The position numbers and the translations under genes were made by a program. Shown one piece after another: positions 5,530 to 63,656 of a stretch of 64,000 nt of DNA (its first letter is position 1; each line of letters starts with the position of its first letter). This stretch comes from Camellia lanceoleosa (Eukaryota > Streptophyta > Magnoliopsida > Ericales > Theaceae), in NCBI GenBank assembly GCA_025200525.1, contig CM045758.1:225390667-225454666 (forward strand), read 5' to 3'. A model generated the notes under the pieces. That model searched no databases. It saw only the letters and a program-made list of their open reading frames with translations, and was not told the origin of the DNA.

Positions 5530-7050
5530 AGAAAAATTATAGAATTATTGGTTGGAAAGAGACATTGGTAATATATATGGTCCCCAAGGTTAATTTTGTC
5601 AAGGCCAATGGGGTGAGGTGGGGTGTGGTCCTCGGACTCTGCAAGGGAAGATTTGGGGTCCTGAGAAAGCTAGCTAGGAGTGCGAGTGGGAGGACATTGG
5701 GAGGGCACATGGGCCAACCATCCAACTTGTCGGACGTCCCGCCAAACTCCTATTTCATCAATTTATAGCCTAAACGGTCCCATTCCCATCAACACAGACA
5801 CACATACACACGAAAAAACAAAAACAAAACCTTTAAATGGCTTGCGTAACCCACGATTTTGTTGGCACTTTCATGCTAACGTAGGCAATCTCACTTCTAT
5901 ATATTAGCTTTTTGGAAAATAGGTTTAAAATTTGATTTTTTTATTTTTTAAAAATAAAGTGGTAATTCAACTTTAAAAAAAAAATTAAAAAGTCAATAAA
6001 TTAATTTTTAACCACGTATCAAAATAGGTCATTATTAGTAGTATTAGGTTTACGTGTTTTTTAATAATTTAGTTACATGTATACCACGTGCTACATTCAA
6101 ATTAAATAAAAGTCTTATTCTGATTTTTAAAATTATATTTATTTTTTTAATTTAGTGGTGGGATTGGATTAATAACCAAGTTATTAACCGTAGGCAGATT
6201 GATAATCTTGTAAAGCAGTCAGATTAATTTACTTTAGAAGGAATTGTGATTGAAAAATCAATCATGCTACAAATATTTCTTATAATAATCTCAGACAAAC
6301 AAAAATTATTGTCATCATATTATTAATTAGATGGTGTCTAAACAAAAACTTTACATCTTACGTCTCGTATAATATCACTATATTAATGATCTAATTACTC
6401 AATTATACCGTACCTAATTCATCATATGACCTTTGAGTAGATATTAAGATAATTTAAAAGATTTTGGATTTTTCTCTTAAGTTTCAATTTAAATATAGCT
6501 ATCATGTTTAGAGTATTCACATCAGTCGTAACAAATTTTGAATCAAATTATAATCTAAAGAATACTTTTACGTTTTAGCTATTATTATTATATACACACT
6601 CCATCAAACTCTCTATTTTAAAATTTTATTTTATTAAAATATTTATTTTTATTCATTTTTGTATTTAAATATCTTTTCAATGAATAGTACATAAAAAATT
6701 AAAAAATGTGAAGTCAAATCTATCAAAAAAAAATGATAAACTATTGAATAATTCATGAGTAGTATTGTTGAGATACTGTAACAAAGTTAACCAAAAGTTA
6801 GTTCATAAATAATTTATTAAGATTAATGGAATAAGAATTTTATGATTTGTTAACTATATTTAAGCTATTTTGGGAAGTGAGTTAAAAGTCACTTTTCAAC
6901 TTTTAACTCACTTTTTCTCTCATAAAAAAAAAAAGACAAAAAAAAAATGCCAAAAAATTAATTTTTAACTATCCTTTCAAAACACTCATTAATTAAAAAT
7001 TACATTTGATGAGGCTAATGTGAATAATATTAGGCTTGTAAGTATTTTAT
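5530..7050. other. AT-rich intergenic DNA, no gene found
   Basis: Open frames here are short and show no recognisable protein. AAAAGTCA-type motifs at about 6860-7000 hint at another decayed MITE without clear ends. Confidence 0.5.
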
Positions 7051-21358: not shown

Positions 21359-23510
21359 GGACTTAATCCTACTAACTGATGCGGTATGGTCTTTGCTAGT
21401 CTATCTGATATTACAAAATAGTGCGAGGACAAGCGAAATAAAAAGACCCTAAGCCTTAGCTTGGCGGGCTCGGAACCTCATGATGAGGCACATTGGTTGG
21501 CTTGACAAAAGCGGAGTTTACCCACGCTTCTAGCATTGGTCGGTGCTGTACACCTACATATATATATATGTGAGCTAATGCCCGATGAATAACATAAAGC
21601 GTAAAGGGGTTTAGAATGAATGTCCTACGAGGTAAAACAGTTCATTTCAATCAATATATCGGTTGTTGATCTGATACTTGATCATATGTGGTACATCCAT
21701 TAGCATAACGATGTGATGGGTCTTAAAAGACCGAACGATAAATGATGGCCATCAATCGATGCGATAGTGGTTCCAACGAGGGAACCGACAGATCTCTATG
21801 TGATAACGATAAGCGATGAGTGCTAAGGATGCCACAGTATAGTTCAGATATAGGACATACATTCATTCAGTAAACAGTTCAGAAAACAGTACAGTTCAGT
21901 TGTTCAAAAGATAATCATTTTAAACATATCTTTACACAATTGTTACTCACAGAGTTCTGGGCTACAGTGAACTAGAGCGTCTCCTCGGAATGCCAACCCT
22001 ATACAGTTAACAGATTGAACACACACTAAGTTTCACAGTTGGGAAAGGTAATAACTTAATCCCTAAATTTGCCTTGATGTGTTCTACATCTATATCCTCT
22101 TTAAGATGCCTTAAATATGCCCTAGGAATGCTTAGGATGGAAAGAGGATGTAAGGATGTATTCAGAAAACATTTTGAAATTTTCGATGAAAGAGTCCCGC
22201 CGGCGCAGTTTCCCTTTCGGCGGAAATCTGACAACAGATTCCGCCGGCGTTAACTTACCTCGGCGGACCAAAAATCTTGGATAGGTGAAATTCACGCTCG
22301 ACGGGCGCTCGATAGTCGCTCGAGCGTAAGACACAAGGTCCCGCTTGAGCGCCAAATACCCTCGGCGCTAAATACCCTTTCGGCGGGTGTCTTTGCGATG
22401 CAAAATCTTGGGAGCTCGATTTTCCTGCTCAAGCGGCACTTCCCCCGCTCGAGCGGACTACCAAAATCTGGAAATTCCAGATTTGAGTCCCAAGCTCAAA
22501 ATCAAGTTTAAATACAAAATTTTCGATCCTCTTGGGCCAAATTTCTGGAAAACATTTGTAAACACATAGAATAACATAATTCAAAGCTTAATTTGTGAAA
22601 TCAAAGCCCAAGGGTGTTTAATTCAAACTCAATTTCGAACCAATTTCATGAACATGAAGAACATACAAACATGTATGAATTTAAATCGATTTAGAGCTTC
22701 AAAGCTTGCTCAAATGAGCTCAAATCTTGCAAAACATGATGAAATCATGGACTACTCTTAAAATATGGATATGCATGTGAGGAATTAAGAACTACAACCT
22801 CAAAACTTCAATATAAGTACATGCATGCAACAATTAAGCTTCAACACCACAATTTGAGCCATAAATTGGCTCTAGACTTCAACTCACTCCAAACCATGCC
22901 AAAAATCAACTCAAAACACAAACAAGGAGGCAATGAATCTACCTTAAGTCTTGAATTAAAGGTATGGAGGCTCAATTATGCACTTAAGCTTCAATTTCTT
23001 CAAGATCACTAAGCAAAATGAGATGAAACCAAGCTCTCTCTCTCTTTTCTCCCTCTCTAGTCGGCTAGAACAAGAAGAATGGTTGATGGAAGTGTTGTTT
23101 CTAAGGATATAATCAAGCCTCAAGTATGGTATGAAGTGGGCCACTAAGTGGCACTAATGTAAATAAGCCAAACTTTGCATTTTATCAATATATAATCTAA
23201 TTTAATCATACTAAATCACATTTCAGATAAATACACCATAAAATCACATTATTTCTACAGATCATGGAACATCAATCAATTCCTGATTCGGCCGCCGATA
23301 AGGCCTTCAATTAACAGTTTAAACATAAACACTGAACAGATAATTAAAACCAAAGCAGATAAAATGCAATTCAAGCAGTCTGAGACAATCAATTGATTTT
23401 AGATTTGATTAATCGATTCGATATTTCAATTACTTCAATTATCAGTCACAATCAGTCTCAGTTTAGCCATAATCGGTAATTAATCGGTAATCAGTGTGAG
23501 GGTCATTACA
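21359..23510 (-). mobile_element. truncated Gypsy-type LTR, - orientation (family A, copy 3)
   Basis: It ends on the plus strand with GGTCATTACA (23510), the complement of the LTR start. At the other side it begins GACTTAATCC, which aligns to about position 13410 of copy 1, so roughly 250 bp of the LTR end is missing. CTCGAGCG motifs occur at 22280-22450. It joins copy 2 directly, head to head, and on the other side returns to copia coding sequence. Confidence 0.75.
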
Positions 23511-24110
23511 AAATCCTTAGGGTGATTATGAACAAACTTCCATTCTCTTGACAAATCATCATTGCTTTCTCCTTCTTCTTGAGGTGGAAAAATAGGTTGT
23601 TCAATTTTTTTGTTCAACTTACATAGTTGGTTCTTTTCTTTATAGATACTTAAATCTTCCACATTTGGTTCCAAATCTATATTATCACTAACAATTTGCT
23701 TTTGAGCAAAGATGTTAGTTTCATCAAATGTCACATGTATAGATTCTTCCGCAACAAGAGTTCCTTTATTAAAAACACAATAAGTTTTGCTAGTTAAGGA
23801 ATAAACAAGAAAAATTGCTTCATCAGATTTTAAATCAAATTTACCTAAGTTATCCTCACCATTATTATGCACAAAATATTTACAACCAAAAACATGTAAG
23901 TGACTAATATTAGGCTTTCTATCATGCCAAAGTTCATAAGGAGTCTTTTTGAGAATAGGTCTAATTAATGCACGATTTAAAATATAGCATGCGGTGTGAA
24001 CAGTTTCAGCTCAAAAATATTTAGGAAGATTATTTTCGCAAAGCATTGTTCTACTCATCTCTTCTAAAGTTCTATTCTTCCTTTCTACTACACCATTTTG
24101 TTGAGGGGTT
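23511..24110 (-). pseudogene. copia integrase C-terminal part and start of reverse transcriptase
   Basis: The minus-strand frame 23480-23872 contains KSDEAIFLVYSLTSKTYCVF, then ESIHVTFDET, the copia integrase tail. REWKFVHNHPKDFV follows, the usual entry into the reverse transcriptase domain. The frame then runs into the inverted Gypsy LTR at 23510. Upstream (23873-24110) sequence with HDRKPNISHLHVFGCKYFVH-like content continues in a different frame with a stop. Confidence 0.8.
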
Positions 24111-24740
24111 TTAGGTGCTGAAAAAAATTATGTCCCATACCATGCTCATCACAAAACAATTCAAATTTCTCATTTTCAAGTTCTCTACCATGATCGATTC
24201 GTATATTAGTAATAAGAAAGTTTTTTCATTTTGAATTTTACGACAGAGTTTTGTGAAAGAACAAAATGTTTCATCTTTGTATGCTAAAAACATAACACAT
24301 GTAAATCTTGAATAATCACCAACAATAACAAAACAATAATGTTTACCACTTAGACTAGATGTCCTTAAGGGAGCAAATAAATCCATATACAGTAGTTGTA
24401 AAGGTCTAGTTGTGGAAATGTGAGATTTTGATTTAAACGATGTTTTAGTTTGTTTTCTTTGTTGAAAAACACTACAAAGATGATCTTTTTCAAATTTAAT
24501 TTTTAGAAGTCCAATGACCAAATCCTTTCTCAAAAGTTTAGCAATTAAATCCATATGAGCATGACCAAGTCTTCTATGCCATAACCAACTATTTTCATTA
24601 TCAACATATAGACATTTAACATCACTAGCATAGAGATCATTGAGATGAAAAACATAAACATTATCGTGACGATTACCAATGAATAAAGTGTTATGATCAT
24701 TTGTGCTTTTAATTGTGCAATGTGATTTATCAAAAATAAC
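24111..24740 (-). pseudogene. copia integrase (GAG-pre-integrase and catalytic core)
   Basis: The segment contains HLCSVFQQRKQTKTSFKSK, then RPLQLLYMDLFAPLRTSSLS and GDYSRFTCVMFLAYKDE. These are the pre-integrase and first catalytic aspartate regions (D in MDLF, D in GDYSR). Near 24545-24700 the pre-integrase zinc-finger portion is split into another frame. The block lies between protease and integrase tail in the canonical copia order. Confidence 0.8.
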
Positions 24741-25021
24741 TCAATTACCTTTATTACATAATTGACTAATACTAAGTAAATTATGCTTAAGTTCATCAAC
24801 AAGTAAAACATTTTTAATATAAGGGTTAGGAGAAATACTGATGCTACCAATACCGATGATTTTTCCTTTCTTGTTGTTTCCAAAAGTAACAAAACCTCCA
24901 TCTTCGGATGATAGTGTAGTAAAGAAGGATTTATTTCCGGTCATATGTCTGGAACATCCACTATCAAGGTACCACTTTCCTTCTTTAGCTTTGGACTTAA
25001 AGCAAACCTACAAGATGACAA
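24741..25021 (-). pseudogene. copia protease region
   Basis: The conserved DSGCSRHMTG motif, with the protease aspartate in DSG, is followed by GKIIGIGSISI and LLVDELKHNLLSISQLCN. This is the copia protease-to-integrase linker. The frame differs from the gag frame to its right, so a frameshift separates them. Confidence 0.8.
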
Positions 25022-25880
25022 TCAAGTGTTGGTTTTTGGTACCCATAATTTCTTGAGTCCTTCTTGGTTAGTTTTGTTAGATCCCTTAACAATCCAAATC
25101 TTTTTAATTCCCATATTTATATTATTTTTGAAGGGGCACGAAGATATATAATGGTCTTTCTTTTTACAATAATGACAAGTAATATGAGGGTGAGTCATGA
25201 GAGGTGTCTTTTCAAAAATTGTATTAAGATTCTTTTGTTTTTTAATAGGGTCATATCCGATGCCCGCCTTATTGAAAATATATCTTTGATTTCCAAGAAT
25301 CATGTTAAGATTATTTCTACATTTTACAAAATTTTCAAGTGTTTTTGTTAAATCATCAACATTGTTTTGTAAAGCAATTTTCTCATTAGAGATGGTGTCA
25401 AAATCATTTTTCAAAACAATTTTTTCCTTCTTTAATTCTTCTACATTAATAGATAAAGATGCAATAGATTTCTTCAACACATTATTTTTGGCACAAACTT
25501 TTCTAAATTCATCTTGTAGTTCATGGAATGCACTTTCAAGTTTTTCATAAAGAGTAATTACCTCATCTTGAGTAGAGTTTTCATCTTCAAGAGCCATGAG
25601 ACACAAGTTGGCTACTTCATTTTCAATTTCATCACTTGAGCTTTCATCTTCACTTTCTCTACAAGTTGCTACCATGGCCTTCTTGTTTTTTTTGTAGTCT
25701 TTTCCAAAATTTTTTAATTTTGGACAATCCATCTTCATATGTCCAGGATTTTTGCACTCATAGCAAATAATAGACTCTTTCTTGTTATCTTTATTGTACT
25801 TTTTCTTGAAAGGTCTTCTTTTTTCATAATTATTTTTCTTGAAGTGCTTTTTGAGATTTCTACTAGAACAACCCTCATCT
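25022..25880 (-). pseudogene. copia gag C-terminal part with zinc knuckle
   Basis: The minus-strand sequence reads CYECKNPGHMKMDCP, a CCHC zinc knuckle, at about 25730-25780. A 238-residue open frame follows, with a long acidic and coiled-coil-like segment and a second cysteine pair in CHYCKKKDHYISSCP. This resembles gag of SIRE-like copia elements, which often have a long linker after the knuckle. At 25880 the coding sequence is interrupted by a 2.7-kb LTR; the rest of gag is at 28587-29339. Confidence 0.8.
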
Positions 25881-28586
25881 TGTCTTAGTCATATTCATGA
25901 GCATTTATATGATTTTGCCTTATTAAGTTTGTACATGCAGACTTAGATTTGTTTTGCCTTAGTAAAGGTTCTTGTCTTGTCTTGATGCTATCATGCTTTT
26001 CTTAAGTATTGTATGCATGCTTTGTTCATTGCTTGGTGTGTTAAGCCTAGGTCATCTGTATTTGCTGTCTCAAGCCTAGGTCACACCTTTGAACCTCTTA
26101 CACCTAGGTTGATGAACGCCAACACCTAGGACCATCTTGGAACCACCTTGGTTGACCTCCACCGTCACCTAGGCATATTGGCTGAGATGTGCATCACCTA
26201 GGCCGAGGGGTGCATCACCTAGGCCGAGATGTGTATCATCTAGGCCGAGATGTTAATTATCTAGGCATTCGAGACCATGATCCTTGAACTTGGCAACCTT
26301 TTATTCCGGGATTGGTACGACCTAGGCCGAGTTGTGGCACATCTAGGCCAGGTGCACACCTGGGTCAAATGTTATCCTCCCTAGCCGAGATTAGGAAGAC
26401 CTTACTTGCCTGAAGCCTATGTCTTGATCCGGGATCATTTCCTTGTCAGAGTGTCCATGCCATCTTACTTGTTATACACATTTTGTCATACTCTTGTCTT
26501 TTCATTCTGGCACCTTTTTAAGGAGATCCAATCAGATGATACCACGTGTCCCAGTAGTGGTTTAAGCCAGCTAGCAGTGAGGAACCCATATCATTTGCTA
26601 TGTTTTTGCCTTAGAAGAGAGAGAAGCTCTAGGAAGAAGAAGGAGTTCTTAGAGAGAGAACTAGAATTCCAAGCTTGATCTTTAGAGTTTGAACCGTTTG
26701 ATCCGTGTTTTGAGGTTAGATTCTTGATCTACTCTTGTTGTTCTTTATGTTGATCTGATCACATTGCATGATCCAGCATGATTCATAAGCCATGCATTGA
26801 TTTAAAGTTTTGTTTTAGAAAGAGAAAATGATGTTCTTGTGTTCTTCAAGAAAAGCCTTGTTTTGATCCGAAAGTTTGTACCAAGTTCCATGTTTTTGTG
26901 TTTGTCTTCATGAAATCTTCAACTATGGGCACCCAGGTCCATGTTTCTGAACTGATATTATGAAATCTCAGATTTTGAATAAGTAGTTATGATTTTAGCA
27001 TTCATGTTCTTCATGTTCATATTCTTCAAGAGGAAACCCAGATTTCCAGATTTCATTTCCCTAAGTGTGGTCACTGAGACCCACTCTTGCCTAGATCCCA
27101 CACCTAGGCCAAGCATCGTATCTCACCTTGGCCTACCTTGCATGATCACTTGCACCTTAGCCTATCTTGCATACACACCTAGGCTGACTATGGTACACCC
27201 TTGCCGGCACCTTGTAACATCTTGGCAGACAGCCGCACACCTAGGCCTAGGAGACCACACCTCGGCCAAGAGGTGTGGGACCTCGGCCAAGACTTCCTGA
27301 GTTCACCTAGCTAGGCCATTTTGGCCTAGATTATCTATGTGCATCCATTTCGAGACTTGGTTGGTACTCAGTATGCTTTTCCAAGAAGAAAAACTGTGTT
27401 TTGACTCCCAGCACATGTTTTGCTTTGTCTTGACGTGGTTTTGGAAAGAAGTGCTGAGATCATTTTCATTCATGTAGAGCTTGTTTTGAGAGTGCATTGC
27501 ACAATCATCTTTGAGCATTCCTTCTTATCTTCTTAAAATGCATTCATTAGGCTTTGCTATATAATTGTAGGTCTTGGATTCTTGCCTTAAGCCCTACATC
27601 TGAAGAACTATTATGAGTGATATTTTTAATAAAGCTATGTTATAATATTTTGATAAAGTTTTGCTTTGTTTCATTTTGGAAAAACATTTGCTCAAGTATG
27701 AATGATTATCCATTAACTTTTGTATCAAGTATTATGTTTGTTTTGATGACATTCTTGGAAGGTCCTTTCGTGCTAGGGGACGTTAAGCCTATGTAGCACC
27801 TATATTTGAGATATCTCTTTGCCATCGACGATCATATACGGATGGTACCACCGACGGTCTTGTACGGGTGGGTTACGTTTTGCCATCGACGGTTTTCCGG
27901 GTGGGTTGTCTAACCAATTCCAAGTCGGCCACTGATAGTCGTGAGCGGGTGTGCTTCGATTCCGGGTCGGTTATTCCTTTGTTTTGTCATAAGTGTCATC
28001 CTTTGTATTATGTAGATGTTATTAAACATCCCAAGATGCTTTGAAAGACTTTGATTGATGAACTTGATTCATCCCATGTTTTGTTACAAGTTATGATATG
28101 TATTGTTTTGATAAAGATTTCGAATATCGTTCATTCAAACCTTTATTATTTATATCATTCACTGAGTATCCAAGCTCACCCTCCCCTTTATATATATGTA
28201 GGTGATTAGTAAGAAGGTGATGTCGACTAAGCTTTGTTTGGAAGATGTTTTGATTCATGTTTTGCTAGCATCTTGAAGATTATGCTCTTTGGTTTTATAG
28301 TTCATTTCTTTTGTATGTTTGGCTTGAGAAAGTTTTTGATTAAGATGTAATATGTACCTTATGTTGTTTTGTATGCAAGTTGTAAAACCATGTTAAGATG
28401 TATGTCATCTCATTTGATCTATACACAGCTCTTATGGACTACTTAGATTTAAATTTATTGCTTCCACACATATAAGCCCCATATGTATACTCTGGTTGTA
28501 TGAAACTTTGTAAGTTGGCATTTGATAATTTTGGATTACTGGCCATCATGGCACCATTCTACTAGGGGCGGAATGGGGTCGTGACA
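25881..28586 (+). mobile_element. solo or truncated LTR of a Gypsy family (family B), inside copia gag
   Basis: The block ends GGGGTCGTGACA. Before that it has a CTTTATATATATGTAGGTGA segment and an ACAGCTCTTATGGACT...TTGCTTCC segment. These landmarks occur in the same order in the other long LTRs here. It separates two halves of one copia gag frame, so it is an insertion. The left end (TGTCTTAGTC) fits TG but not the usual TGTAATAACC start, and the flanks (CATCT, TTTAC) are not a duplication. The left end may therefore be truncated. Around 26040-27320 about a dozen CCTAGG or near-CCTAGG motifs are clustered. Confidence 0.65.
26040..27320. repeat. clustered CCTAGGC-type short repeats within LTR
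   Basis: The palindrome CCTAGG recurs in phrases such as CATCACCTAGGCCGAG and CACACCTAGGCC at irregular spacing. It occupies the part of the LTR where other LTRs in this window carry CTCGAGCG clusters. Confidence 0.75.
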
Positions 28587-35759: not shown

Positions 35760-37004
35760 ATGGAGAACTCAGGGGGAAGTGGTGAAAGTGAATCATCTGA
35801 GGCTCGCATGAGCCGAATGGAACAGATGTTGGCAGCATTGACTGAGACCCTAACACAGCAACAAAGGCAACAGCCTTTACCTCCTCCACTTCCACCGGTA
35901 CAAGTTGAGGCAGATAACAATGACATCATAAATCTGACACAGAAATTCATGAAGATGAAACCGCCGACATTTTATGGTGGGATTGAGCTCCTGAAGGCAG
36001 AAACATGGTTGCTTGAGATGGAGAAGTTGTATGAGGTGTTCCCTTGTTCTGAAACTTAGAGAGTTTTGTTGGCTACCTACACACTGAAAGATGAAGCTCG
36101 CAGGTGGTAGTTACTGATTCGAAATGGTCACGAAAATATGACATGGACCCAGTTCAACGCAATCTTTTATGATAAGTATTTTCCCCAGTGCTTTCGAAAC
36201 CGAAAAGTCTCAGAATTTCAGGAACTTAAACAGGGCAAGATGTCTGTAGCCCAGTATGAGGCCAAGTTCACTGAGCTAGCCAGGTTTGCTCCCCATATGG
36301 TGGACACAGAAGACAAGAAGGCCCGCAAGTTTGAGGATGGATTGGATCTGGACATACTAGATAGGGTGAGAGTTCTGAATCTACCCACATATGTGAGCGT
36401 TTTGGATAGGGCATTAATGGCAGAATCCATTCTAGCAGCAAAGAAACAAACTTCCGCTCCACGGACTGAGTGGACAGGGAAAAGATCGGGAAACAGCTTC
36501 AAAAAGGGTCGTTCATTTTACGGAAATAAGAAACAGAACATAGGGTCATACAGCAACTCAAGCCAGAATAGTGGTACCACACCGACCTGTCCGGAGTATG
36601 GTAAGAGACACAAGGGAACTTGTTATCGAACTTTGGGCGTCTGTTTTAGATGTGGGAAACCCAGTCATATGATGAAGGATTGTCCCGTCAGGTTCGAAAA
36701 CGCCAACCATCTCGCGGCAAGTTCAGCTGGGTCCGCTTCTACGGCCAAACCAAATGCAAAAGCAAATGCCGGGAAAGAACCTCTAAAACAAGGTCGAGTA
36801 TTCGCTCTAGTGCCCGGTGACGTACCAAACACCTATACTGTGGTGTCAGGTACACTTTCTATATGTTCTCAATATGCATGTGTGTTGATAGATTCTGGTT
36901 CTACGCATTCTTTCGTGTCGCATGCTTTTTCTCAGAAATTGACTAGGCCACTAGAACATATGACATGTGTATTATCAGATTCACACCTTATGGGGATTCT
37001 ATGA
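35760..37004 (+). pseudogene. Gypsy gag and aspartic protease, broken
   Basis: The ATG at 35760 begins MENSGGSGESESSEARMSRM. Two TAG codons interrupt the same frame, at 36057-36059 and 36108-36110; the second replaces a tryptophan of the RRWW-type motif. The frame resumes with WTQFNAIFYDKYFPQC, then KARKFEDGLDLDILDRV. A CCHC zinc knuckle, CFRCGKPSHMMKDCP, follows near 36640-36690. The retroviral-type protease active site reads LIDSGSTHSFVS near 36885. The frame shifts near 36980, and the rest of protease (KDDVVVGDMMLYVDLLPLDI, FDCIMGMDWL) lies in the next frame up to 37200. Its organisation matches the gag at 59675-60751, but the two clearly belong to different families. Confidence 0.9.
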
Positions 37005-37200
37005 TGTGTACTCATGTTTATCCAAAGATGATGTTGTGGTTGGTGATATGATGTTGTATGTGGATTTATTGCCATTGGACATTCATCATTTTGATTGCAT
37101 TATGGGGATGGACTGGTTGACTAAGTACTGTGCTACTATTGATTGTGTGAACAAAACTGTGGTGTTTAGACCGCCAGGTATGCCTCGAATTTACCTTTAG
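36967..37200 (+). pseudogene. Gypsy protease C-terminal part, frame-shifted
   Basis: Continues the protease after the shift near 36980, with DIHHFDCIMGMDWLTKYCAT and VVFRPPG. It stops at 37198-37200. Between here and 37288 all frames have stops. Confidence 0.8.
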
Positions 37201-37287
37201 AGGAAATGGGTAGTCCCCCATACTTAATTTCGCTATGAAAGTCAGAAACTACTTAGGAAGGGTTGTAGGGGTTATCTGTGTTACATA

Positions 37288-38262
37288 TTGACTACCTCAT
37301 CTGACAGTCCTACCGTAGAAACAATCCCTGTTGTTTGTGACTTTCCTGATGTGTTTCCAACTGATTTACCGGGGGATTTAGTTGACAGAGAAATTGAATT
37401 TACTGTTGAGGTAATTCCAGGGACACAACCTATATCCAAGACTCACTATAGGATGTCTATCTCTGAATTGAAAGAACTGAAAACCCAACTCCAGGAACTA
37501 TTAGACAAGAACTTTATTTGTCCGAGTACTTCACCTTGGGGTGCTCCAGTGTTATTTGTCAAAAAGAATGATGGGTCTTTGAGATTGTGTATAGACTATC
37601 GGGAATTAAACAAAGTGACTATCAAAAACAAATACCCTCTGCCCCGAATAGATGACTTATTTGACCAACTTCAGGGTGCCCAAGTGTTTTCTAAAATTGA
37701 CCTCAGGTCTGGGTATCATCAGTTAAAGGTTAGAGCCGAAGACATTGAGAAAACTGCATTCCGAACTAGATATGGACATTATGAATTCTTGGTAATGCCG
37801 TTTGGGATGACAAATGCACCTGCTGCTTTCATGGATCTTATGAATAGAGTGTTTAAATCGTATCTGGATGATTTTATTGTTGTATTTATTGATGATATTC
37901 TGATATATTCTAAAGACAGGGAAGAACATGAAAAACATTTGAGAACCGCCTTGCAGATATTGAGAGAAAAGAAGTTGTATGCTAAATTGTCTAACTGCGA
38001 ATTCTGGCTGGACAGTGTAGCATTTCTGGGCCATGTGATTGACAAAAATGGTGTTTCTGTAGACCCTCAGAAAATTGAAGCTGTTGTGGATTGGCCGAGA
38101 CCTACAAATGTGACAGAAGTACGAAGTTTTCTGGGACTTGCAGGCTACTACAGGAGATTTGTTAAGGACTTCTCGAAGCTTGCCTTGCCATTGACTCAGT
38201 TAACTCAGAAAAACATGCCATTTGACTGGAATGATCAAAGAGAGCGTTTTTCCAAGAGTTGA
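37288..38262 (+). pseudogene. Gypsy reverse transcriptase
   Basis: Recognised by [20 protein letters not shown], then [28 protein letters not shown] and [15 protein letters not shown]. The catalytic box is FIDDILIYS (the YxDD box with F), followed by [15 protein letters not shown]. The domain is essentially complete. At about 38250 a 1-base shift leads to TGA. The intact frame continues about 60 bases in another phase before a compensating shift near 38325. Confidence 0.93.
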
Positions 38263-38310
38263 AAACTGTGTTAGTGATCGCACCAATCTTAACTTTGCCA
38301 AACGGCATCG

Positions 38311-39381
38311 ATGGGTTTCAAGTGTACAAAGGATGCTTCATATAAAGGCTTAGGGTGTGTGCTAATGCAAAATGGAAAGGTGATTGCTTATGCTTCTAGA
38401 CAACTCCGACCTCATGAAAAGAATTACCCAACACATGATCTTGAATTGGCAGCCGTAGTGTTTGCTTTGAAAATATGGCGTCATTACTTGTATGGGGTAA
38501 CTTGCGAAGTGTACACCGACCATAAAAGCTTGAAATATTTCTTCACCCAAAAGGAGTTGAATATGAGACAGAGACGATGGATGGAACTAATCAAGGATTA
38601 TGACTTGCAAATCTTATATCACCCAGGAAAGGCTAATACTGTGGCGGATGCCTTGAGCCAAAAATCTGGTGCAACTGTGTCGTGTTTGTTATCTAGCCGA
38701 AAAGACTTGTCAACTGACTATGAACAAGATGGATTGATATCTGCTATCTCTGCTCAACCTGCTATTCTTGATGAGATTAAACAGAAACAATGTGAAGATG
38801 AACACTTGACAAAGATTATAGAGGAGTTTGATTCGAAACCGAGGCCCGAATTTGTGTTTGAAAATGGCGTGCTGAAATTTCAGAACCGTCTTTGTGTACC
38901 TGATTGCTATGATTTGAGAAAACGTGTTATGACCGAAGCTCACAGTAGTAAATTTGCTATGCATCCGGGGAACACGAAGATGTACCACAATTTGAAACAG
39001 AATTTTTGGTGGCCTGGAATGAAGAGGAGTATTGCAGACTTTGTAACTAGATGTCTACACTGCCAACAGGTTAAAGCTGAACATCAACGACCTGCCGGTT
39101 TGCTACAACCACTCCCGATACCAGAATGGAAATGGGAGCACATCACCATGGACTTCATTGTGGGATTGCCTCGTTCTTCTCGAGGTATGGACTCTATTTG
39201 GGTTATAGTCGACCGTTTGACTAAGTCTGCACATTTTCTGCCTGTTAAAACTATTTATAACGCTGATAGATTGGCTAACATCTATATGACTGAAATTGTG
39301 AGACTGCATGGAATGCCAGTGTCTATTGTGTCTGACAGGGACTCGAAGTTTGTGTCAAGATTTTGGCAAAGTTTGCAATAG
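38311..39381 (+). pseudogene. Gypsy RNase H and integrase N-terminal/core
   Basis: RNase H motifs are [45 protein letters not shown] and [11 protein letters not shown]. The integrase HHCC finger follows (histidines in [11 protein letters not shown], cysteines in [10 protein letters not shown]). The catalytic core has [10 protein letters not shown], then [12 protein letters not shown] and [16 protein letters not shown] at 39379-39381 ends the open frame inside the core. The same frame continues ALGTELRLSSAYHPQTDGQT to a TGA at 39445-39447, where an arginine codon is expected (CGA to TGA). Confidence 0.92.
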
Positions 39382-39447
39382 GCTTTGGGAACAGAATTGA
39401 GACTGAGCAGTGCTTACCACCCACAGACTGATGGCCAAACTGAATGA

Positions 39448-40245
39448 ACTAACCAAACTCTGGAGGATATGCTCAGAATGTGTGTGTTAGATTTCCAGGG
39501 AAATTGGGAAACCTACTTGCCATTAGCTGAGTTTGTGTACAACAACAGTTATCACTCAAGTATTGGGATGGCTCCTTACGAAGCATTGTATGGAAGGAAG
39601 TGTCGATCTCCAATATGTTGGGCTGAAGTGGGTGACAGACCTTTGTTGGGACCGGAACTCGTGCAAGAGACAACCGAGAAAGTGAAACTGATACAGCAGC
39701 GTTTGAAAACTGCACAGAGTAGGCAAAAGAGTTATGCCGATGTTCGGAGAAGAGAAAGGGAATATGAAGTAGGGGACCATGTGTTCATTAAAGTGACCCC
39801 GATGAAGGGTCAAACCCGATTTGGTGTTAAAGGAAAATTGGCTCCGAGGTATGTTGGACCTTACGAAGTTCTTGAAAAGATCAATCCGGTGTCCTATCGA
39901 ATAGCCTTATCTCCGGTGATGGAACATATGCATAATGTCTTCCATGTATCGATGCTCCGGGAATATCTGCGAGATCCACTCCATGTCATCGAACCAACGC
40001 ATGTGCTTTTGAAGGATGACTACACCTATGAAGAAAGGCCTATACATATTGTGAATCGAAGGATTAAAAGACTGAGAAATAAGGAAATACCGTTGGTGAA
40101 AGTTGATTGGCAGAACCACGGGGGAACCTATGCAACTTGGGAAACCGAGGAAGACATGAAGAAAAGATATCCGGATTTGTTCCCTCTAGACCCGATGTTG
40201 ACTCCGAATGAAGGTAACTTGAGTTTGGGTACCAAACTCTTTTAA
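39448..40245 (+). pseudogene. Gypsy integrase C-terminal part with chromodomain-like tail
   Basis: Continues in frame after two stops with [20 protein letters not shown], then [20 protein letters not shown] and the [18 protein letters not shown] region. The end carries [20 protein letters not shown], then KVDWQNHGG and [16 protein letters not shown]. That is a divergent chromodomain typical of Tekay/Del chromoviruses and is thought to guide integration to particular chromatin. The stop is at 40243-40245, directly before the polypurine tract. Confidence 0.9.
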
Positions 40246-51412: not shown

Positions 51413-52579
51413 ATGCGTCCGAGGGTTAACAATGGCATGGGTTGGATGGAAGGAGAGGAAGACGATGCAGTTTCTTGGAGCAGAAACAACAACAACCACG
51501 AAGGAGAGACCAAGGACGCAGACTTGAACCACCCTTCTCTCTCTACTTTCAAATCCTTTCTCGAAAGTGATTGGTACATGAACAATGCTATAATCATGAA
51601 CCCAGACTTCCAAACCATCCCAGAATTCAAAGATATGAACATGAATATGACCTTCTCTTCTTCTTCTTCTTCTAATCCCCCAACTACTGTTCCTGCTGAT
51701 AATCTTCTCTTACAGCAGCCAAAGCCAATGGACTCCTCCTCCTCCTGCTCTCCCTCTCAAACATTCAACTTCGACCCATCACTCTCTCACCCATTCTTGC
51801 CTCCTCCCTCATCTTGCTTTTCTTCACTCTTCAATGTTGTCTGTAACAACAGCAACAACTCTTTTGAAAACGGCTTCGATTTGGGCTGTGACACTAATTT
51901 TCTTGAAAATCATAATTGTAATTCCCCCATGTTGATGGGTTTCAATGGTCTGAGTTGGAGTTCTTCTGAGTTTCCAGCAACCCGTTTGGGGCAGATTTCT
52001 GACAACAACGCTGCAATTGGTTTCGAGGGTTCTTCTTCTGGGGATGGGGATGCTTTGTTTCTGAACATGTCTAAGGTTTTGAGGCCTCTTGAAATTTTAC
52101 AACCTGTTGGAACTCGGCCCACTCTCTTTCAGAAGAGAGCTGCTTTACGACAAAGCTCTGCTGCCGGAGCCATTAATTTGGGGAATTTGGACTTGAGGAG
52201 GGGCACCGAGGTTTCAGCAAGAGCTGATGGAAATTGGGGAAAGAGACTGGACGATGGAGAATTGGAGAAGAAGAGGAAGACAAACGATGAAGATGAATTT
52301 GAGGAAGCCAGTATTGATGCGTCGGGACTTAATTATGATTCTTCTGATGAGCCTTTTGAGAACAAGAAGGTGGATGAGAGTGAGGATACCAACAATGGTG
52401 GGAATAACAATTCCAATGCTAACACCACCGTCACTACTGTTGTTGTTGGAGATGATCAAAAGGAAAAGGGAAAGAAAAAGGGGCTGCCAGCCAAAAATTT
52501 GATGGCTGAGAGGCGGCGAAGGAAAAAGCTCAATGATAGGCTATACATGCTTAGGTCTGTTGTCCCCAAAATCAGCAAG
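51413..52579 (+). CDS. ICE1-like: ICE1-like exon 1 (N-terminal region, KRAA motif, basic region and helix 1)
   Basis: 389 codons from MRPRVNNGMGWMEGEEDD, a start typical of the family, to VVPKISK. Serine/asparagine-rich segments lie at residues 80-150 and an acidic stretch at 290-330. The motif LFQKRAALRQSS is at about residues 238-249. It corresponds to the KRAAM motif bound by MPK3/6, in which an arginine change stabilises the Arabidopsis protein (scrm-D). Here R242 is kept and the methionine is leucine. The DNA-binding basic region NLMAERRRRKKLN is at residues 362-374, followed by helix 1 RLYMLRSVV. The donor is AAG|GTATGA. The in-frame stop three bases later is intronic. Confidence 0.95.
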
Positions 52580-52900: not shown

Positions 52901-53137
52901 ATGGATAGAGCTTCAATACTTGGAGATGCCATTGAATACTTGAAGGAGCTTTTGCAAAGGATCAATGATCTCCACAATGAACTTGAGGCAACCCCACTGG
53001 CACCAGGATCTTTGCTGCCACTGCCATCAACAAGCAGCTTCCATCCATTGACACCCACCCCACTGACCCTTCCATATCGTATCAAAGAAGAATTATGCCC
53101 AAGTTCATTGCCCAGCCCTAAAAACCAACCTGCAAGG
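52901..53137 (+). CDS. ICE1-like: ICE1-like exon 2 (helix 2 and linker)
   Basis: 79 codons, from [20 protein letters not shown] (helix 2, dimerisation) through INDLHNELE to a proline/threonine/serine linker [19 protein letters not shown]. It ends PSPKNQPAR at donor AGG|GTAATT. The linker holds the KEEL segment, which in ICE1 proteins includes a SUMO-type lysine context; that role is inferred from family knowledge. Confidence 0.95.
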
Positions 53138-53311
53138 GTAATTTCATTAATGTAGAAATTGGCTTACTGAGTTGGTCAGTCTTGAATATTGATGTTTTAT
53201 GAGTTCCTACCTTGTCGTTTTGCCTTAGTTTTGAGTAAGGCATTTTTAAGTGTATGGATGCTCATAAACTGTTTCTTTTTTATTAATTTATTTTCCAAAA
53301 AAAGAAAAGAA

Positions 53312-53332
53312 GGGGGGGGGGGGGGGGGGGGG
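53312..53332 (+). repeat. poly(G) run of about 20 bases
   Basis: An uninterrupted G tract after AAAAGAAAAGAA and before TGTGTTG, in the transcribed intron. It could fold as a G-quadruplex in DNA or RNA, and its exact length is likely to be uncertain in any assembly. Confidence 0.8.
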
Positions 53333-53769
53333 TGTGTTGTTATTTGGTCCAATTACCAGAAATGGTTTCTCTGAAACGTATTATCAGAAGACGGTAAAAG
53401 CTTTTGAGAGCATGGTGTTTTTTGCCATTTTATCATCCCCAAGTCCCAACTAGAAGCATAGAATGGAAAAGTTCGTTCTGGTGTTTCCTGAAAATTGGTG
53501 CTTTTAAACTGATTATTTTTATAATGGTTTATGATACCAACCAACAAAAAAAAATTTCTTGTGTTGTATTATGCCATCTCTAACTCTAGTCTCTGCCAAT
53601 TATGCCCTTTCTGCCTTTGTCGAGCGGTGCTCATGAACTTCGGAAACTATGACAGATTAATAAATGTATGTTCATTGGACCTGGGATTGGATATAGAAAT
53701 TAGAGCATATAAATCTTTTTGTATTTAGTATTATATATATAATTTGTGATTGTGTTAATAACTGAATTA

Positions 53770-55990: not shown

Positions 55991-56449
55991 GATGCCTTCC
56001 AAGGTCTTGCTGGCTGCCGACCAGGGTGTTTCTTGGCCATAGATACTTCGGAAGCTCTTCCAGGGCAATTCAGTCCCTGTTTTTTTTTCCTTTTTGGGAT
56101 GTGGTGCTGATGTATTAAGCACTTTTTGGCCTTTTTCATTTAGTGGATTACTAGATTTGTTCGGTAGTATTTATTTGGACTAGCTGTTGAGTTTTTTTCG
56201 GCCTCTTTCAGTCATCCATTAGCAAACTGCGATTGTTGAATATTTTCACACCAGTTTGAGAAAGAGTGATGAATATAGAAATTAAAGTACATACAATTTT
56301 TTTATTTTTAGTATTATGTATATAATCTGTGATCGTGTCAATCATTGATTTAGTATTGTTTTCTATTTCTTATTTATATCGTTTCCTAAATTATATCATG
56401 AATCTATTATATAGACATGATCTCTACTTCATTAATTGATAAGTCAAAT

Positions 56450-57049
56450 GATTCTTTTCATTCTTTTCTGGGATGGGACTAATTTATCAATGACATTGAC
56501 TCGTAGTGTGGTTTCAATGCCATGATCCTAAAGAAAATGAATTAAAACATTTGTGTAGGTGCTCAAATGGGTATTTGTCTCATTATACATATTGGCGGGA
56601 ACCAAAGTCGCTAAAAAAATTAAAAATCGGAGTATGCTTTTGTTGTATATTTTGGATTTTTCCTGGTCGGTTGAGTGTTAAGAATTCAGTTTTATGTTTG
56701 ATTAATTTCTATATGAAGGTTAATGTAGTACGGATGAATAAATTGTTTATGATTCTTTTCATTCTTTTCTGGGATGGGACTAATTTATCAATGACATTGA
56801 CACGTAGTGTGGTTTCAATGCCATGATCCTAAAGAAAATGAATTAAAACATTTGTGTAGGTGCTCAAATGGGTATTTGTCTCATTATACATATTGGCGTG
56901 AACCAAAGTTGCTAAAAAAATTAAAAATTGGAGTATGCTTTTGTCGTATATTTGGATTTTCCTGGTCGGTTGAGTGTTAAGAATTCAGTTTTATGTTTGA
57001 TTAATTTCTATATGAAGGTTAATGTAGTACTGATGAATAAGTTGTTTAT
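56450..57049 (+). repeat. 301-bp direct tandem duplication in intron 2
   Basis: Units 56450-56750 and 56751-57049 both start GATTCTTTTCATTCTTTTCT and end TGAATAARTTGTTTAT. They differ by a few substitutions and short indels. The sequence upstream of the first unit (56273-56449) is itself a copy of sequence at about 53691-54080. Confidence 0.92.
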
Positions 57050-57370
57050 GTCCTTTGACAAACAATTGGGTCCTATGGTTCAATCATTTTGTTACACAGG
57101 ACACAACTTGTCCTAGTGGAATGCCCAGTGAATTGTCCCATGCTTGTGGTAATTGGATATTTTCATATATGAAATTGGTGGTGCTGTTTATGTGATCAAA
57201 GAGTTAATTGGAGTCCATTTGTTTAAAACACTAATCCTTTGCTAGACAAGACTAAAGTGTTTCATAGCCTCGTTAAGCATATCATTTAATGTTACCAAAA
57301 ATCAGCTTGTACGATTACTGCAGGAAATTCCTTTTGTTCTTCTCAAGAAAATTCTGTGCATGTTGTGTAG

Positions 57371-57405
57371 GTTGAGGTTAGGGTAAAAGAAGGGAGGGCT
57401 GTCAC
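57371..57405 (+). CDS. ICE1-like: ICE1-like exon 3, 5' part, cut by the TR-GAG element
   Basis: Encodes VEVRVKEGRAV plus the first two bases of a threonine codon, the first strand of the ACT-like domain. The acceptor is TGTGTAG|GTTGAG. The final GTCAC is the left copy of the target duplication. Confidence 0.93.
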
Positions 57406-59374
57406 TGTCACGCCCAAACCCGCCCCGAGAGGTTTGGCGACGAGACCGGCCAGTAATCCTAGATTACCACAGGCCTTTCTACACATAACATAAATAAAAT
57501 GGGGCTCGCGGAAGCACATGCAAAAACTATAGTCCAAGAGCTGTGCATTTATATGAACAAGTGTATATACATGCCAAAAATGATAGTTACATAACTTGAT
57601 CAAGAACATTACATAAGTACAAGTCACAAAGAACAAAAGACAAAACTCTCTCACGGCCTTCCAGGCCTAGCCCCAACTCGGAGGCACTCAAAACTCCTGG
57701 TTAGGCTTCAAAACGGCGGCTCAGTCCGAGACTCACTTAGGCTACCTGAATGTTCACCTATAATACATAAATACAAACAATGAGCTAAAGCTCAGCAAGT
57801 AACGTTAAAGTAAAGGGGTAGTGAACGAATACCAACATTCTATATACAGTTATGAACAGTCAACAGTCATTAATGGCATAATCCACAGAACCTTTCATAA
57901 CCTTTCATAACAGTCAATCCTTTAATAGTCTAACAGTCTACGAGATCTCGTGACTGGCCATGGGCCTTCATCTTCATGCCCTAACCCATGACTGATCAGA
58001 TCATGAGTCTACATGTTCATGTCGCACCCATGACCTAACTATCCATAGACGCCATGCTAGATTTGCAAATAAGGGCATTCGTTCACAGTTTAAAATCACC
58101 TTTCAAACATATCATATCATAACGTATCACTTTGAAACATAATTTATTATAACATATCTTTACAGAAACGTTACTTACAGTGGGTTTCCAATACCGGTTG
58201 CACGGTCTTCGAGGTTTGTCTTGCAATTAACATTATAAAACATTCCTTAACATTCATTATCATTATACATTAAACCATTCATGCTTCTCTTTCTTTCCTT
58301 TACTTTAATTCATGCCATAACATTCATTCTTTACTTCATTTCATGTTCATTACATGCTCAAGATGCTAAATGATACAATTAACATGGTAAAAACAAGTAT
58401 GCAACTTCCCCAAAATTTTCCGGAAAAAGGCCTACCCGCTCGAGCGCCACTTTGGCCGCTCGAGCATACTGAAGAAAATGTCCAAAACTGCTGAGAGGGT
58501 GTTTTCTGCGCTCGGCGTGCTCCGATTCTCGGCGGTTCTTCTTCACTTTTTCAAACTCCACTCTCTTCTTTCCAAAATCAACTTCTAATACATGAACCCA
58601 AATCCCAAAATACTTGAAACTCATCTTAAATCAACATCAAAACTTCAATTCGAAACCCATATGGAACATTAGCAAGATCGAACCCATGAATTAAGTTGGA
58701 AAAGCCATGAACATGCACAAGAAAGCTTCATTTTCAACTTCCATGGAGGTCACCCTCAAAAATGCCAATAAACCATAAATCATATCATTTTAAAGCCATA
58801 ATCTGGAGTTCAACATACTAGAGGTCAAAGAGCAACAATCAATTTCATGAAAATCTTACCTTAATCTTTGATTTGGAGGAACTAGACTTGATTTCCCTTT
58901 CTTCTCCCTTGGTTCTCCCTTTCTTCCTCTTCCTTTCCCTTGCTCCTCTCTTCTCACGATTTTCTCTCTTCTCTCTCCAAATATTTCTCTCTTTTGGTTT
59001 TTTGAGTCAAATAGGTCAACACATCCTTATCTAATAACATATATATCTATATAATCAATTTACTCATAACACTTAGCCAAACAAGGCCCTTGTTTGCTTA
59101 TAACAACTATGCCAAAACATTTGAGCCAAACGGAACTTAGCGAATCAGATAAATTTCAGTCTTCAATTTATTTTCTCAAAAGCCTCTAAAAATTCCCGGT
59201 ATCATATAGACATGTTCAATTTCATTTCCTGAACCCATTACGGTCTTCAATTTCAATCCCGAAGTCATGGTCTTAACAGATAATTTTCTAAATCAAACAG
59301 GTATTCTTCAATTAAATTATACTAACACATCATTAATTACCAATAATTAAATCATACAGTTCCGGGTCATTATA
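57406..59374 (-). repeat. 3' LTR of the TR-GAG element
   Basis: 1969 bp, highly similar to 60955-62971. Its element-start dinucleotide is TA (TATAATGACCC) instead of TG. It lacks several short segments present in the other LTR, notably intact CTCGAGCG units near 58510. Confidence 0.92.
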
Positions 59375-59389
59375 CTCTCCCCAACTTAA
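59375..59389 (-). other. polypurine tract of the TR-GAG element
   Basis: On the minus strand TTAAGTTGGGGAGAG lies immediately before the 3' LTR, the expected plus-strand primer site. Confidence 0.8.
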
Positions 59390-59674
59390 AAAGTTTGGTC
59401 CTCCAAACTTAACTCCAAATCAGACATGTCAAGCACACATTAGCAATCTTTCTACAGAGATGTGCGACTCAAAGCATAAATGTAACCATTCCTTAATCAA
59501 ATAATAGCAAGGGGAATAGCATATGTAAATTGGGTCCGGCATAGTTATATATTCTATATTTCCATCACATAGGTCACATGGCTAATTTATAATAGATAAC
59601 AAAAGTCATACCTGTCTTCGCTTTTCCAGTGTTCTGTGTCTTATCTGCTACTAAAGTGAAAACTCTTGCTTCCC

Positions 59675-60751
59675 TTAACGTGTTCTCGGAGTAGTCATTG
59701 TAGTTGTCATTGGTGTCATTGTTGAATTACTTCCACTGGTAACGGGTCTTTCATTCCTTGGATAACCTTGTGGGCAAGTCTTGGCCATATGTCCTCTCTG
59801 TCCACATTTGTAACAAGTTCCTGTTCCAAAGCGGCAAATGCCCCAATGCTGTTTCCCACATTCCTGACAAGTAGGCTTACCAACACTTCCACTGCTTCCT
59901 CTTTGTGTATTATAACTCAAACTTGACTTCAAATTCTCATTCACGGAAGTCACTGATTCACTAACTGAGTCCGCTTTCTGTTTTTTAATTTTTCTACCTT
60001 CAGCTTCAGTCATTGTTGTTGATTTGGACGCTTTCAAACTAGCAATATTTGTTTCCGACATTAGGGCCCTATCAAGTACATCAACATATTTTTCTAATTT
60101 CAGCACATTCACCCGATCTAACACTTCAACATGCAAGCCACCCTCAAATTTTCTTGCCTTCTTGTAATCCGTATCAACCATGTGAGGAGCATAACGGGCA
60201 AGTTCGGTGAATTTTGCTTCATATTCCGCTACTGTCATTATGCCTTGCTTCAGCTGTTCAAACTCAGAAATTTTCCTATCTCGTATGCACTGTGGAAAAT
60301 ATTTTTCATAGAATATCTCTTTAAATCGGTCCCAAGTCAAATCCCTATTTGCATCTCGAACTAGCATCCACCATCTTCTCGCTTCTTCTTTCAGAGTAAA
60401 GGTTGCCAATAGCACTTTGTAAGCATCAGTACATGGAAATACTTCAAAAATTTTCTCAGTCTCAAGTACCCATACCTCTGCTGTTAATGGCTCAATGCCT
60501 CCTGCAAATTCTGGTGGTTTCAGTTTCTTATACTTCTGTGTAAGGGTGATGATATCATCATTAGGAATCGGTTCCATTTGCACAGGTGGTGGAGGAGGAG
60601 GTGGAAAAGGTTGTCTCGGTTGTGGCTGTTGGTTTTGCTCTAATTGTTGTCTAACCAATCCAGTTAAAGCCTCTACCATTCTTTCTAATCGACCTATTCT
60701 GGCATCCGAAGATTCTGTTTCATCTACATTTCTTGCATTTGTATCTTCCAT
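59675..60751 (-). CDS. intact gag of the TR-GAG element
   Basis: 358 codons with no interruption. It starts MEDTNARNVDETESSDARIG, then has a leucine-rich LERMVEALTGLVRQQLEQ segment and a proline-rich stretch near residues 48-62. The retrotransposon gag domain follows (EEARRWWMLVRDANRDLTW, FKEIFYEKYFPQC, KARKFEGGL). A CCHC zinc knuckle, CYKCGQRGHMAKTCP, is at about residues 318-332, preceded by a further cysteine pair in CQECGKQHWGIC. Gag assembles particles and packages RNA. An intact gag with no pol suggests selection for packaging or simply youth. The start is the first ATG after the primer-binding site. Confidence 0.92.
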   Translation of the reverse strand: MEDTNARNVDETESSDARIGRLERMVEALTGLVRQQLEQNQQPQPRQPFPPPPPPPVQMEPIPNDDIITLTQKYKKLKPPEFAGGIEPLTAEVWVLETEKIFEVFPCTDAYKVLLATFTLKEEARRWWMLVRDANRDLTWDRFKEIFYEKYFPQCIRDRKISEFEQLKQGIMTVAEYEAKFTELARYAPHMVDTDYKKARKFEGGLHVEVLDRVNVLKLEKYVDVLDRALMSETNIASLKASKSTTMTEAEGRKIKKQKADSVSESVTSVNENLKSSLSYNTQRGSSGSVGKPTCQECGKQHWGICRFGTGTCYKCGQRGHMAKTCPQGYPRNERPVTSGSNSTMTPMTTTMTTPRTR

Positions 60752-60939
60752 TGGTCTCTAGAGCCCATATCAAACACAACATTTCATTCTTAACATCAGC
60801 TTTCCTCTGTTGCTTCATCATTCCCAGTTCTCATATCCATAACACACACACACATGCACATGTATTTATGCCATGCCCTATTTCTTTTCTAATGCACCTA
60901 ACAGCTCATTGGACACGTGTGTGGGTAATTAACTCGTGC

Positions 60940-60951
60940 GCTCTGATACCA
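60940..60951 (-). other. primer-binding site of the TR-GAG element
   Basis: TGGTATCAGAGC on the minus strand, three bases after the 5' LTR end; complementary to initiator methionine tRNA. Confidence 0.92.
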
Positions 60952-60954
60952 CTC

Positions 60955-62971
60955 TGTCACGCCCCAAACCCGCCCCGAGAGGTTTGGCGACGAGACCGGC
61001 CAGTAATCCTAGATTACCACAGGCCTTTCTACACATAACACAAATAAAATGGGGCTCGCGGAAGCACATGCAAAAACTATAGTCCAAGAGCTGTGCATTT
61101 ATATGAACAAGTGTATATACATGCCAAAAATGATAGTTACATAACATGATCAAGAACATTACATAAGTACAAGTCACAAAGAACAAAAGACAAAACTCTC
61201 TCACGGCCTTCTAGGCCTAGCCCCAGCTCGGAGGCACTCAAAACTCCTGGTTAGGCTTCAAAACGGCGGCTCAGCTCGAGACTCCGCCTAGGCTTGGCTA
61301 CCTGAATGTTCACCTATAATACATAAATACAAACAATGAGCTAAAGCTCAGCAAGTAACATTAAAGTAAAGGGGTAGTGAACGAATACCAACATTCTATA
61401 TACAGTTATGAACAGTCAACAGTCATTAATGGCATAATCCACAGAACCTTTCATAACCTTTCATAACAGTCAATCCTTTAACAGTCTAACAGTCTACGAG
61501 ATCTCGTGACTGGCCATGGGCCTTCATCTTCATGCCCTAACCCATGACTGATCAGATCATGAGTCTGCATGTTCATGTCGCACCCATGACCTAACTATCC
61601 ATGGACGCCATGCTAGATTTGCAAATAAGGGCATTCGTTCACAGTTTAAAATCACCTTTCAAACATATCATATCATAACGTATCACTTTGAAACATAATT
61701 CATTATAACATATCTTTACGTAAACGCATTACAATTGGGTTTCCAATACCGGTTGCACGGTCTTCGAGGTTTGTCTTGCAATTAACATTATAAAACATTC
61801 CTTAACATTCATTATCATTATACATTAAACCATTCATGCTTCTCTTTCTTTCCTTTACTTTAATTCATGCCATAACATTCATTCTTTACTTCATTTCATG
61901 TTCATTACATGCTCAAGATGCTAAATGATACAATTAACATGGTAAAAACAAGTATGCAACTTCCCCAAAATTTCCCGGAAAAAGGCCTACCCGCTCGAGC
62001 GCCACTTTGGCCGCTCGAGCATACTGAAGAAAATGTCCAAAACTGCTGAGAGGGTGTTTTCTGCGCTCGAGCGTGCTCCCCTCCGCTCGAGCGGACAGAG
62101 CAAAACTCCGAATTTCTGGTTCTTCTTCACTTTTTCAAACTCCACTCTCTTCTTTCCAAAATCAACTTCTAATACATGAACCCAAATCCCAAAATACTTG
62201 AAACTCATCTTAAATCAACATCAAAACTTCAATTCGAAACCCATATGGAACATTAGCAAGATCGAACCCATGAATTAAGTTGGAAAAGCCATGAACATGC
62301 ACAAGAAAGCTTCATTTTCAACTTCCATGGAGGTCACCCTCAAAAATGCCAATAAACCATAAATCATATCATTTTAAAGCCATAATCTGGAGTTCAACAT
62401 ACTAGAGGTCAAAGAGCAACAATCAATTTCATGAAAATCTTACCTTGATCTTTGATTTGGAGGAACTAGACTTGATTTCCCTTTCTTCTCCCTTGGTTCT
62501 CCCTTTCTTCCTCTTCCTTTCCCTTGCTCCTCTCTTCTCACGATTTTCTCTCTTCTCTCTTCTCTCTTCTCTCTCCAGATATTTCTCTCTTTTGGTTTTT
62601 GAGTCAAATAGGTCAACACATCCTTATCTAATAACATATATATCTATATAATCAATTTACTCATAACACTTAGCCAAACAAGGCCCTTGTTTGCTTATAA
62701 CAACTATGCCAAAACATTTGAGCCAAACGGAACTTAGCGAATCAGATAAATTTCAGTCTTCAATTTATTTTCTCAAAAGCCTCTAAAAATTCCCGGTATC
62801 ACATAGACATGTTCAATTTCATTTCCTGAACCCATTACGATCTTCAATTTCAATCCCGAAGTCATGGTCTTAACAGATAATTTTCTAAATCAAACAGGTA
62901 TTCTTCAATTAAATTATACTAACACATCATTAATTACCAATAATTAAATCATACAGTTCCGGGTCATTACA
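60955..62971 (-). repeat. 5' LTR of the TR-GAG element
   Basis: 2017 bp with canonical TG...CA ends on the minus strand. Contains intact CTCGAGCG units (61990-62095), including a segment missing from the other LTR, and a longer TCTCTTC microsatellite near 62550. Confidence 0.92.
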
Positions 62972-62976
62972 GTCAC

Positions 62977-63112
62977 CATCCACATGTTCTGTGCCCGCAG
63001 ACCAGGTCTCTTGCTCTCCACCATGAGGGCTCTGGACAACCTTGGGCTGGACATTCAGCAAGCCGTCATCAGCTGTTTCAATGGGTTTGCTTTGTATGTA
63101 TTTATAGCTGAG
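62977..63112 (+). CDS. ICE1-like: ICE1-like exon 3, 3' part
   Basis: Together with 57371-57405 and a single GTCAC it makes a 171-nt phase-0 exon. It reads [20 protein letters not shown], then [20 protein letters not shown] and YVFIAE, the core of the ACT-like domain. Donor GAG|GTATAT. The left copy of the duplication (62972-62976) belongs to the same exon. Confidence 0.93.
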
Positions 63113-63578: not shown

Positions 63579-63656
63579 CAATGCAGGGAAGGCCTAGAAG
63601 TTGTACCCGAGCAGATCAAAGCAGTACTTCTGGACTCGGCTGGTTTCCAGTTGTAG
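63579..63656 (+). CDS. ICE1-like: ICE1-like exon 4 (C-terminus)
   Basis: 25 codons, QCREGLEVVPEQIKAVLLDS then AGFQL and TAG at 63654-63656. The QC-EG-E--PEQIKAVLLDSAG block is the conserved end of ICE1/SCRM proteins; family members usually end AGF or AGY plus a few residues. Confidence 0.93.
   Translation, partial: QCREGLEVVPEQIKAVLLDSAGFQL

Follow-up and report, generated by a model that had tools for sequence, protein, structure and literature searches.

The part that the ACT-like domain of ICE1/SCRM proteins plays in the choice of partners has been studied with Arabidopsis mutants and transgenes, and the available portions of PMC8892516 describe SCRM forms (the scrm-D suppressor alleles and SCRM-deltaC) that keep the bHLH region and have lost the whole ACT-like domain. 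Here we describe a gene of the same family at the end of a 64,000-nucleotide stretch of Camellia lanceoleosa DNA (assembly GCA_025200525.1, contig CM045758.1, positions 225,390,667 to 225,454,666 of the forward strand; hereafter the window), whose third exon is interrupted by a long terminal repeat (LTR) retrotransposon. As far as those portions go, the Arabidopsis forms come from mutagenesis or transgenes and have been shown to act, whereas the Camellia form is natural, transposon-caused and probably heterozygous, and its product is a predicted one. The inserted element shares with the TR-GAG elements, as they are named in the accessible part of PMC10552921, its LTRs, primer-binding site, polypurine tract, gag-only coding content and membership in a dispersed family. 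A third comparison is offered by the tea cultivar Tieguanyin (C. sinensis), for which the available text of PMC8346365 reports large-effect allele differences, with premature stops in 297 allele pairs and frameshifts in 719. These are likewise disabling changes between haplotypes; unlike those pairs as described there, both haplotypes would carry a lesion in the present case, and one of the lesions is a retrotransposon in an exon. Among the titles listed for ICE1 retrotransposon insertion or for Camellia ICE1, none names this allele, and on titles we make no claim that it is unreported.

The reading we favour, and consider probable though well short of secure, is that a redundant ICE1 locus is decaying in this plant, with the insertion on haplotype A and a frameshift on haplotype B. 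The window would represent haplotype A of the Camellia gene, and a gag-only LTR retrotransposon would have entered exon 3 in antisense orientation after A had diverged from B. Haplotype B would be an overlapping contig that was left unpurged 142 kb downstream in the same scaffold, free of the element and with a 7-bp frameshift in exon 1. Two further ICE paralogues would make the locus redundant, and both haplotypes would be losing function.

The end of the window holds a four-exon ICE1/SCRM gene on the plus strand with GT-AG introns. Exon 1 (51413..52579, 389 codons) is open in this copy, designated copy A, and aligns with the three Camellia orthologues P0001-P0003; exon 2 (52901..53137, 79 codons) encodes the second part of the bHLH region; the first part of exon 3 (57371..57405) closes with the left GTCAC of the insertion, its frame resumes in the second part (62977..63112) with the core of the ACT-like domain, and exon 4 (63579..63656) carries the normal stop codon. 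The exon-joined protein of copy A aligns over its whole length with P0001-P0003 at 94-96% identity, the top values among the matches listed (120 of 1,896 proteins, which were also used for the residue alignment), and the next matches in that list are ICE-type and ICE1-type proteins from other plants, in agreement with the sequence-only reading, which had named the gene ICE1/SCREAM. P0002 and P0003 are named Camellia sinensis, and P0001 is from a 1.8-kb contig that carries the frame without introns and looks like a transcript. Copy A reads KRAAL (by eye) where the family motif is KRAAM, a motif named for ICE1/SCRM proteins in the available text of PMC8892516. By descent, as judged from these alignments, the locus is a member of the ICE1/SCRM family, though its unspliced product would have no ACT-like domain. 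We also noticed that a C. sinensis gene model, P0004, fuses ICE1 exons to retrotransposon sequence: it begins at residue 62, stops in intron 2 and has no exons 3 and 4, and could reflect either faulty annotation or a further damaged allele. Intron 2 of copy A contains a long run of G (window 53300-53335), a site prone to sequencing errors.

Exon 3 stops at GTCAC (57401..57405), is followed by an element of 5,566 bp (57406..62971) that lies on the minus strand, antisense to the gene, with outer ends TG...CA, and continues in frame after a second GTCAC (62972..62976); the junctions, the repeated GTCAC and the resumed frame agree with the sequence-only reading. In the sense of the element, its 3' LTR measures 1,969 bp (57406..59374, minus strand) and its 5' LTR 2,017 bp (60955..62971, minus strand); the pair differs by 22 substitutions in 1,960 aligned bases, 18 of them transitions (Kimura two-parameter distance, K2P, 1.13%), plus several clustered indels. 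The internal region of 1,580 bp contains, also on the minus strand, the primer-binding site TGGTATCAGAGC (60940..60951), which we take to resemble the end of the initiator methionine tRNA, a polypurine tract adjoining the 3' LTR (about 59375..59387, by eye) and a gag frame that runs from its first Met (by eye) over 59675..60751, within a stop-to-stop frame of 360 codons at 59675-60757. This is the sole long minus-strand frame inside the element and it matches gag models only (Pfam Retrotrans_gag, 1.8e-19; Ty3_capsid, 1.5e-8; zf-CCHC, 3.5e-6). Four AATAAA motifs lie on the gene-sense strand of the element. A search of the genome (3.0 Gb, 790 contigs) returned at least 39 other matches to the internal region at 79-94% identity, at least 22 of which cover at least 1,549 of 1,551 bases, both counts being lower bounds, with 40 scored of 6,046 candidates. 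Since the internal region matches so many places, the element belongs to a dispersed gag-only family. TR-GAGs are known as elements of less than 4 kb, and the present one, at 5.6 kb with 2-kb LTRs, exceeds that size, so we call it TR-GAG-like without assigning it as a member; of the earlier description as a complete TR-GAG, the structure and the dispersed gag-only family hold and the size does not. Three features rule out a chance arrangement: the 5-bp duplication is exact, the 2-kb LTRs form a pair, and a second copy of the gene has the site without interruption.

This second copy was located through the exon 3 sequence, which matches three other places in the genome. The nearest, at C1:225595444, is part of a four-exon copy, designated copy B, that lies 142 kb downstream in the same scaffold and has an uninterrupted exon 3, with GTTAA where copy A has its left GTCAC. 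Exon 1 of copy B (L005:6572-7719, equivalent to C1:225586572-225587719) carries, as assembled, two deletions, one of 7 bp that shifts the frame and one of 12 bp that keeps it. With the 7-bp loss the original frame is left past residue 60 and a stop follows after 72 residues; an internal ATG overlaps the stop of the shifted frame (ATGA) and opens a frame of 472 residues, whose product would be without the first 74 residues and would retain both the bHLH and the ACT-like domain. Intron 2 is 7,131 bp long in copy B vs 4,233 bp in copy A, and in both it contains a direct duplication of about 300 bp (window 56448-57056), which must be older than the split between A and B because both have it. ICE paralogues lie on C15 and C2, one on each, and their four exons align to the C. 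sinensis protein P0119 with per-exon identities of 66-91% (C15) and 95-98% (C2) and with no stop or frameshift in those alignments. A search for a second intact ICE1 copy, as the sequence-only reading had advised, is therefore answered in part: the two paralogues show no lesion in their exon alignments, and the near-identical copy B is itself frameshifted. The C15 and C2 paralogues may supply the function of the damaged locus.

A close examination of the surroundings of the two copies was made in joined coordinates, that is, the window plus the sequence downstream of it, compared with itself. Collinearity between A and B begins at window position 6662, opposite joined position 152101, the first base after a scaffold gap of 100 Ns (C1:225542667-225542766), and from there it continues, apart from some interruptions, across genes, transposons and intergenic DNA to joined position 71973, the end of the sequence compared. 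A piece further downstream matches joined 87355-92346 at 97.4%, and another falls in a three-unit tandem array, reaching about 120.8 kb at 91-93% with an ambiguous register. Homology was thus followed to about 121 of 152 kb; the stretches compared, up to 72 kb and from 87 kb onward, sample about 86 kb of collinear sequence, or 114 kb with the array included. The array itself (C1:225482664-225511443) consists of units of about 9.8 kb at roughly 94% identity and recurs in the downstream contig. Window 2600-6640, just outside the overlap, has no second copy among 40 scored of 11,103 candidates. Noncoding substitutions between A and B number 1,470 in 54,095 bases (2.72%; A-B K2P 2.77%), which is close to the heterozygosity published for the group, namely 2.31% in C. 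sinensis Tieguanyin (PMC8346365) and 2.52% and 2.20% in two oil camellias (PMC10106683), as given in the accessible parts of both sources. That haplotype sequence can be left over in assemblies is known for Camellia, as the contig assembly of Tieguanyin totals 5.41 Gb although the genome measures about 3.15 Gb (PMC8346365, same portions). We infer that the scaffold most likely carries both haplotypes, A and B, one after the other and unpurged, in which case the insertion is probably heterozygous. Heterozygosity had been set out in the sequence-only reading as an alternative, and with an uninterrupted exon 3 beyond the scaffold gap it becomes the more likely case.

The order of events at the locus can be read from the same comparison. 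The K2P of the LTR pair (1.13%) is about 0.4 of the divergence between A and B (2.77%), so the element is younger than their split, as the lack of the element in copy B also requires. At the same two positions, each GTCAC departs from copy B (GTTAA) and from both paralogues, and since the two changes are present on either side of the element they are older than the insertion. Through one of them the ACT-like domain has lost an asparagine that is kept in 119/119 homologues, and two more replacements in exon 3 of copy A strike residues kept in 117/119 and 119/119 (each site leaves out one gapped protein, P0004, which has no exon 3). With the direction of change polarised by the Camellia proteins (P0001, P0003 and P0004 where P0002 is gapped, at one site), copy A has three derived replacements in the 171 bases of exon 3 vs three in 1,482 bases elsewhere (Fisher p 0.017). 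Whole exons of A and B differ by 13 coding substitutions (11 in 1,631 bases when only genomic alignment matches are counted), 10 nonsynonymous and 3 synonymous, and their ratio of nonsynonymous to synonymous rates (Ka/Ks) is 0.94; the mean for tea alleles is 0.07 according to the available text of PMC8346365, and ratios of 0.07 (p 1.6e-5) and 0.2 (p 0.011) are rejected.

Several observations weigh against a decaying pair of haplotypes and have to be set beside this evidence. The Ka/Ks value rests on those 13 changes, and a ratio of 0.3 is only marginally rejected (p 0.059). Coding divergence (13/1,634) is far below noncoding divergence (Fisher p 5e-8), so the gene has been constrained for much of the time; synonymous change, at 3 in about 362 sites, is also below the noncoding level (binomial p 0.011), for which we have no explanation. 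Because both coding and synonymous divergence are low, any relaxation would be recent. The frameshift of copy B could be an assembly error. The piece L031, in which the upstream contig's end should have its overlap, gave no match, and the end of the window's contig (C1:225516000-225542600, L017-L019) instead shows collinearity at 90-95% with C13:73.46-73.49 Mb, a pattern suggestive of a chimeric contig or a rearrangement; a second place on C13 matches two of the three contig-end queries at 88-93%, and these searches also returned repeats. The same features leave room for a recent segmental duplication, in which A and B would be true paralogues, one interrupted and one frameshifted: the two copies stand in order on a single scaffold at a distance of 142 kb, the overlap was not traced to its right-hand end, and the C13-like sequence between them would allow a rearranged duplication. 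Such an origin is nevertheless unlikely, although it is the main rival and deserves serious weight, as the homology begins exactly at the scaffold gap, which is expected of contigs from two haplotypes and places a clean tandem duplication lower, and as the divergence equals published heterozygosity. The gap with its overlapping copies is also an assembly problem in the surroundings of the insertion, and could raise the suspicion that the insertion junctions are artefacts as well. The exact 5-bp target duplication and a complete element with both outer ends make this hardly credible, and on these grounds we rejected the idea that the insertion itself arose in assembly.

What a decaying haplotype A would still produce can be predicted from its frames. 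Read through without splicing, copy A encodes 508 residues and ends at a stop codon inside the LTR (57491..57493), with an AATAAA that begins at the last base of the stop, 57493. Pfam finds HLH in this product (9.1e-10) and, at E <= 0.001, no ACT-like domain, while the orthologue P0002 has both; the earlier estimate of about 508 residues with bHLH and without the ACT-like domain is hence reproduced. Skipping of exon 3 would preserve the frame and give 493 residues. If copy A is expressed, it most likely gives truncated or unstable transcripts and at most the 508-residue bHLH protein, and nonsense-mediated decay would be expected for an mRNA with this 508-residue frame that continues to exon 4. 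That the copy instead works as a natural domain-loss allele, as the sequence-only reading had proposed, with transcripts ending in the LTR and a stable bHLH protein that pairs with SPCH and FAMA and not with MUTE, agrees with the 508-residue frame and the AATAAA overlapping its stop. We hold it to be improbable in view of copy B, the paralogues and the change that preceded the insertion. The residue kept in 119/119 homologues had changed before the element arrived, so constraint on the domain may by then have loosened; decay of longer mRNAs would act against such a protein; and none of the public proteins listed has the LTR tail, in a weak search (43-residue query, 15 candidates, one protein shown per 90% cluster) that was too short to be sensitive, ordinary ICE1 proteins not being returned. 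One step further, the locus could yield two complementary truncated SCRM products, with A having the bHLH without the ACT-like domain and favouring SPCH and FAMA over MUTE, and B without the first 74 residues, a combination that appears quite remote. Removal of the element as an intron would require a hypothetical cryptic donor, AGG|GTAAAA (57383..57384), and a hypothetical LTR acceptor, ATACAG|TTCC (62955..62956), preceded by TACTAAC at 62917-62923. The junction of 57383 with the acceptor ending at 62956 is in frame without a stop and would give 549 residues, in which eight residues of the ACT-like domain would be replaced by seven partly LTR-encoded ones. But agreement of frame arises by chance in one case in three, the donor reads GTAAAA in A vs GTAAGA in B and is the weaker of the two, and with a second acceptor, at 62972, the frame is lost, all of which renders this outcome highly improbable.

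Elsewhere in the window, long frames at 23480-25888 (minus strand) and 36111-40245 (plus strand) resemble, as judged by eye, fragments of copia-type and gypsy-type retrotransposon polyproteins.

The locus presents a case in which one ICE1/SCRM gene is broken by different lesions on probably two haplotypes of one plant, and it illustrates how what looks in a single scaffold like a striking loss may be one member of an unpurged pair of haplotypes. The order of events is readable, with a residue of the ACT-like domain altered first and the element inserted later. Should both truncated products be made, the two ends of SCRM would be found separated in nature; and if copy A is expressed, it would provide a natural test of the part that the ACT-like domain plays in partner choice.

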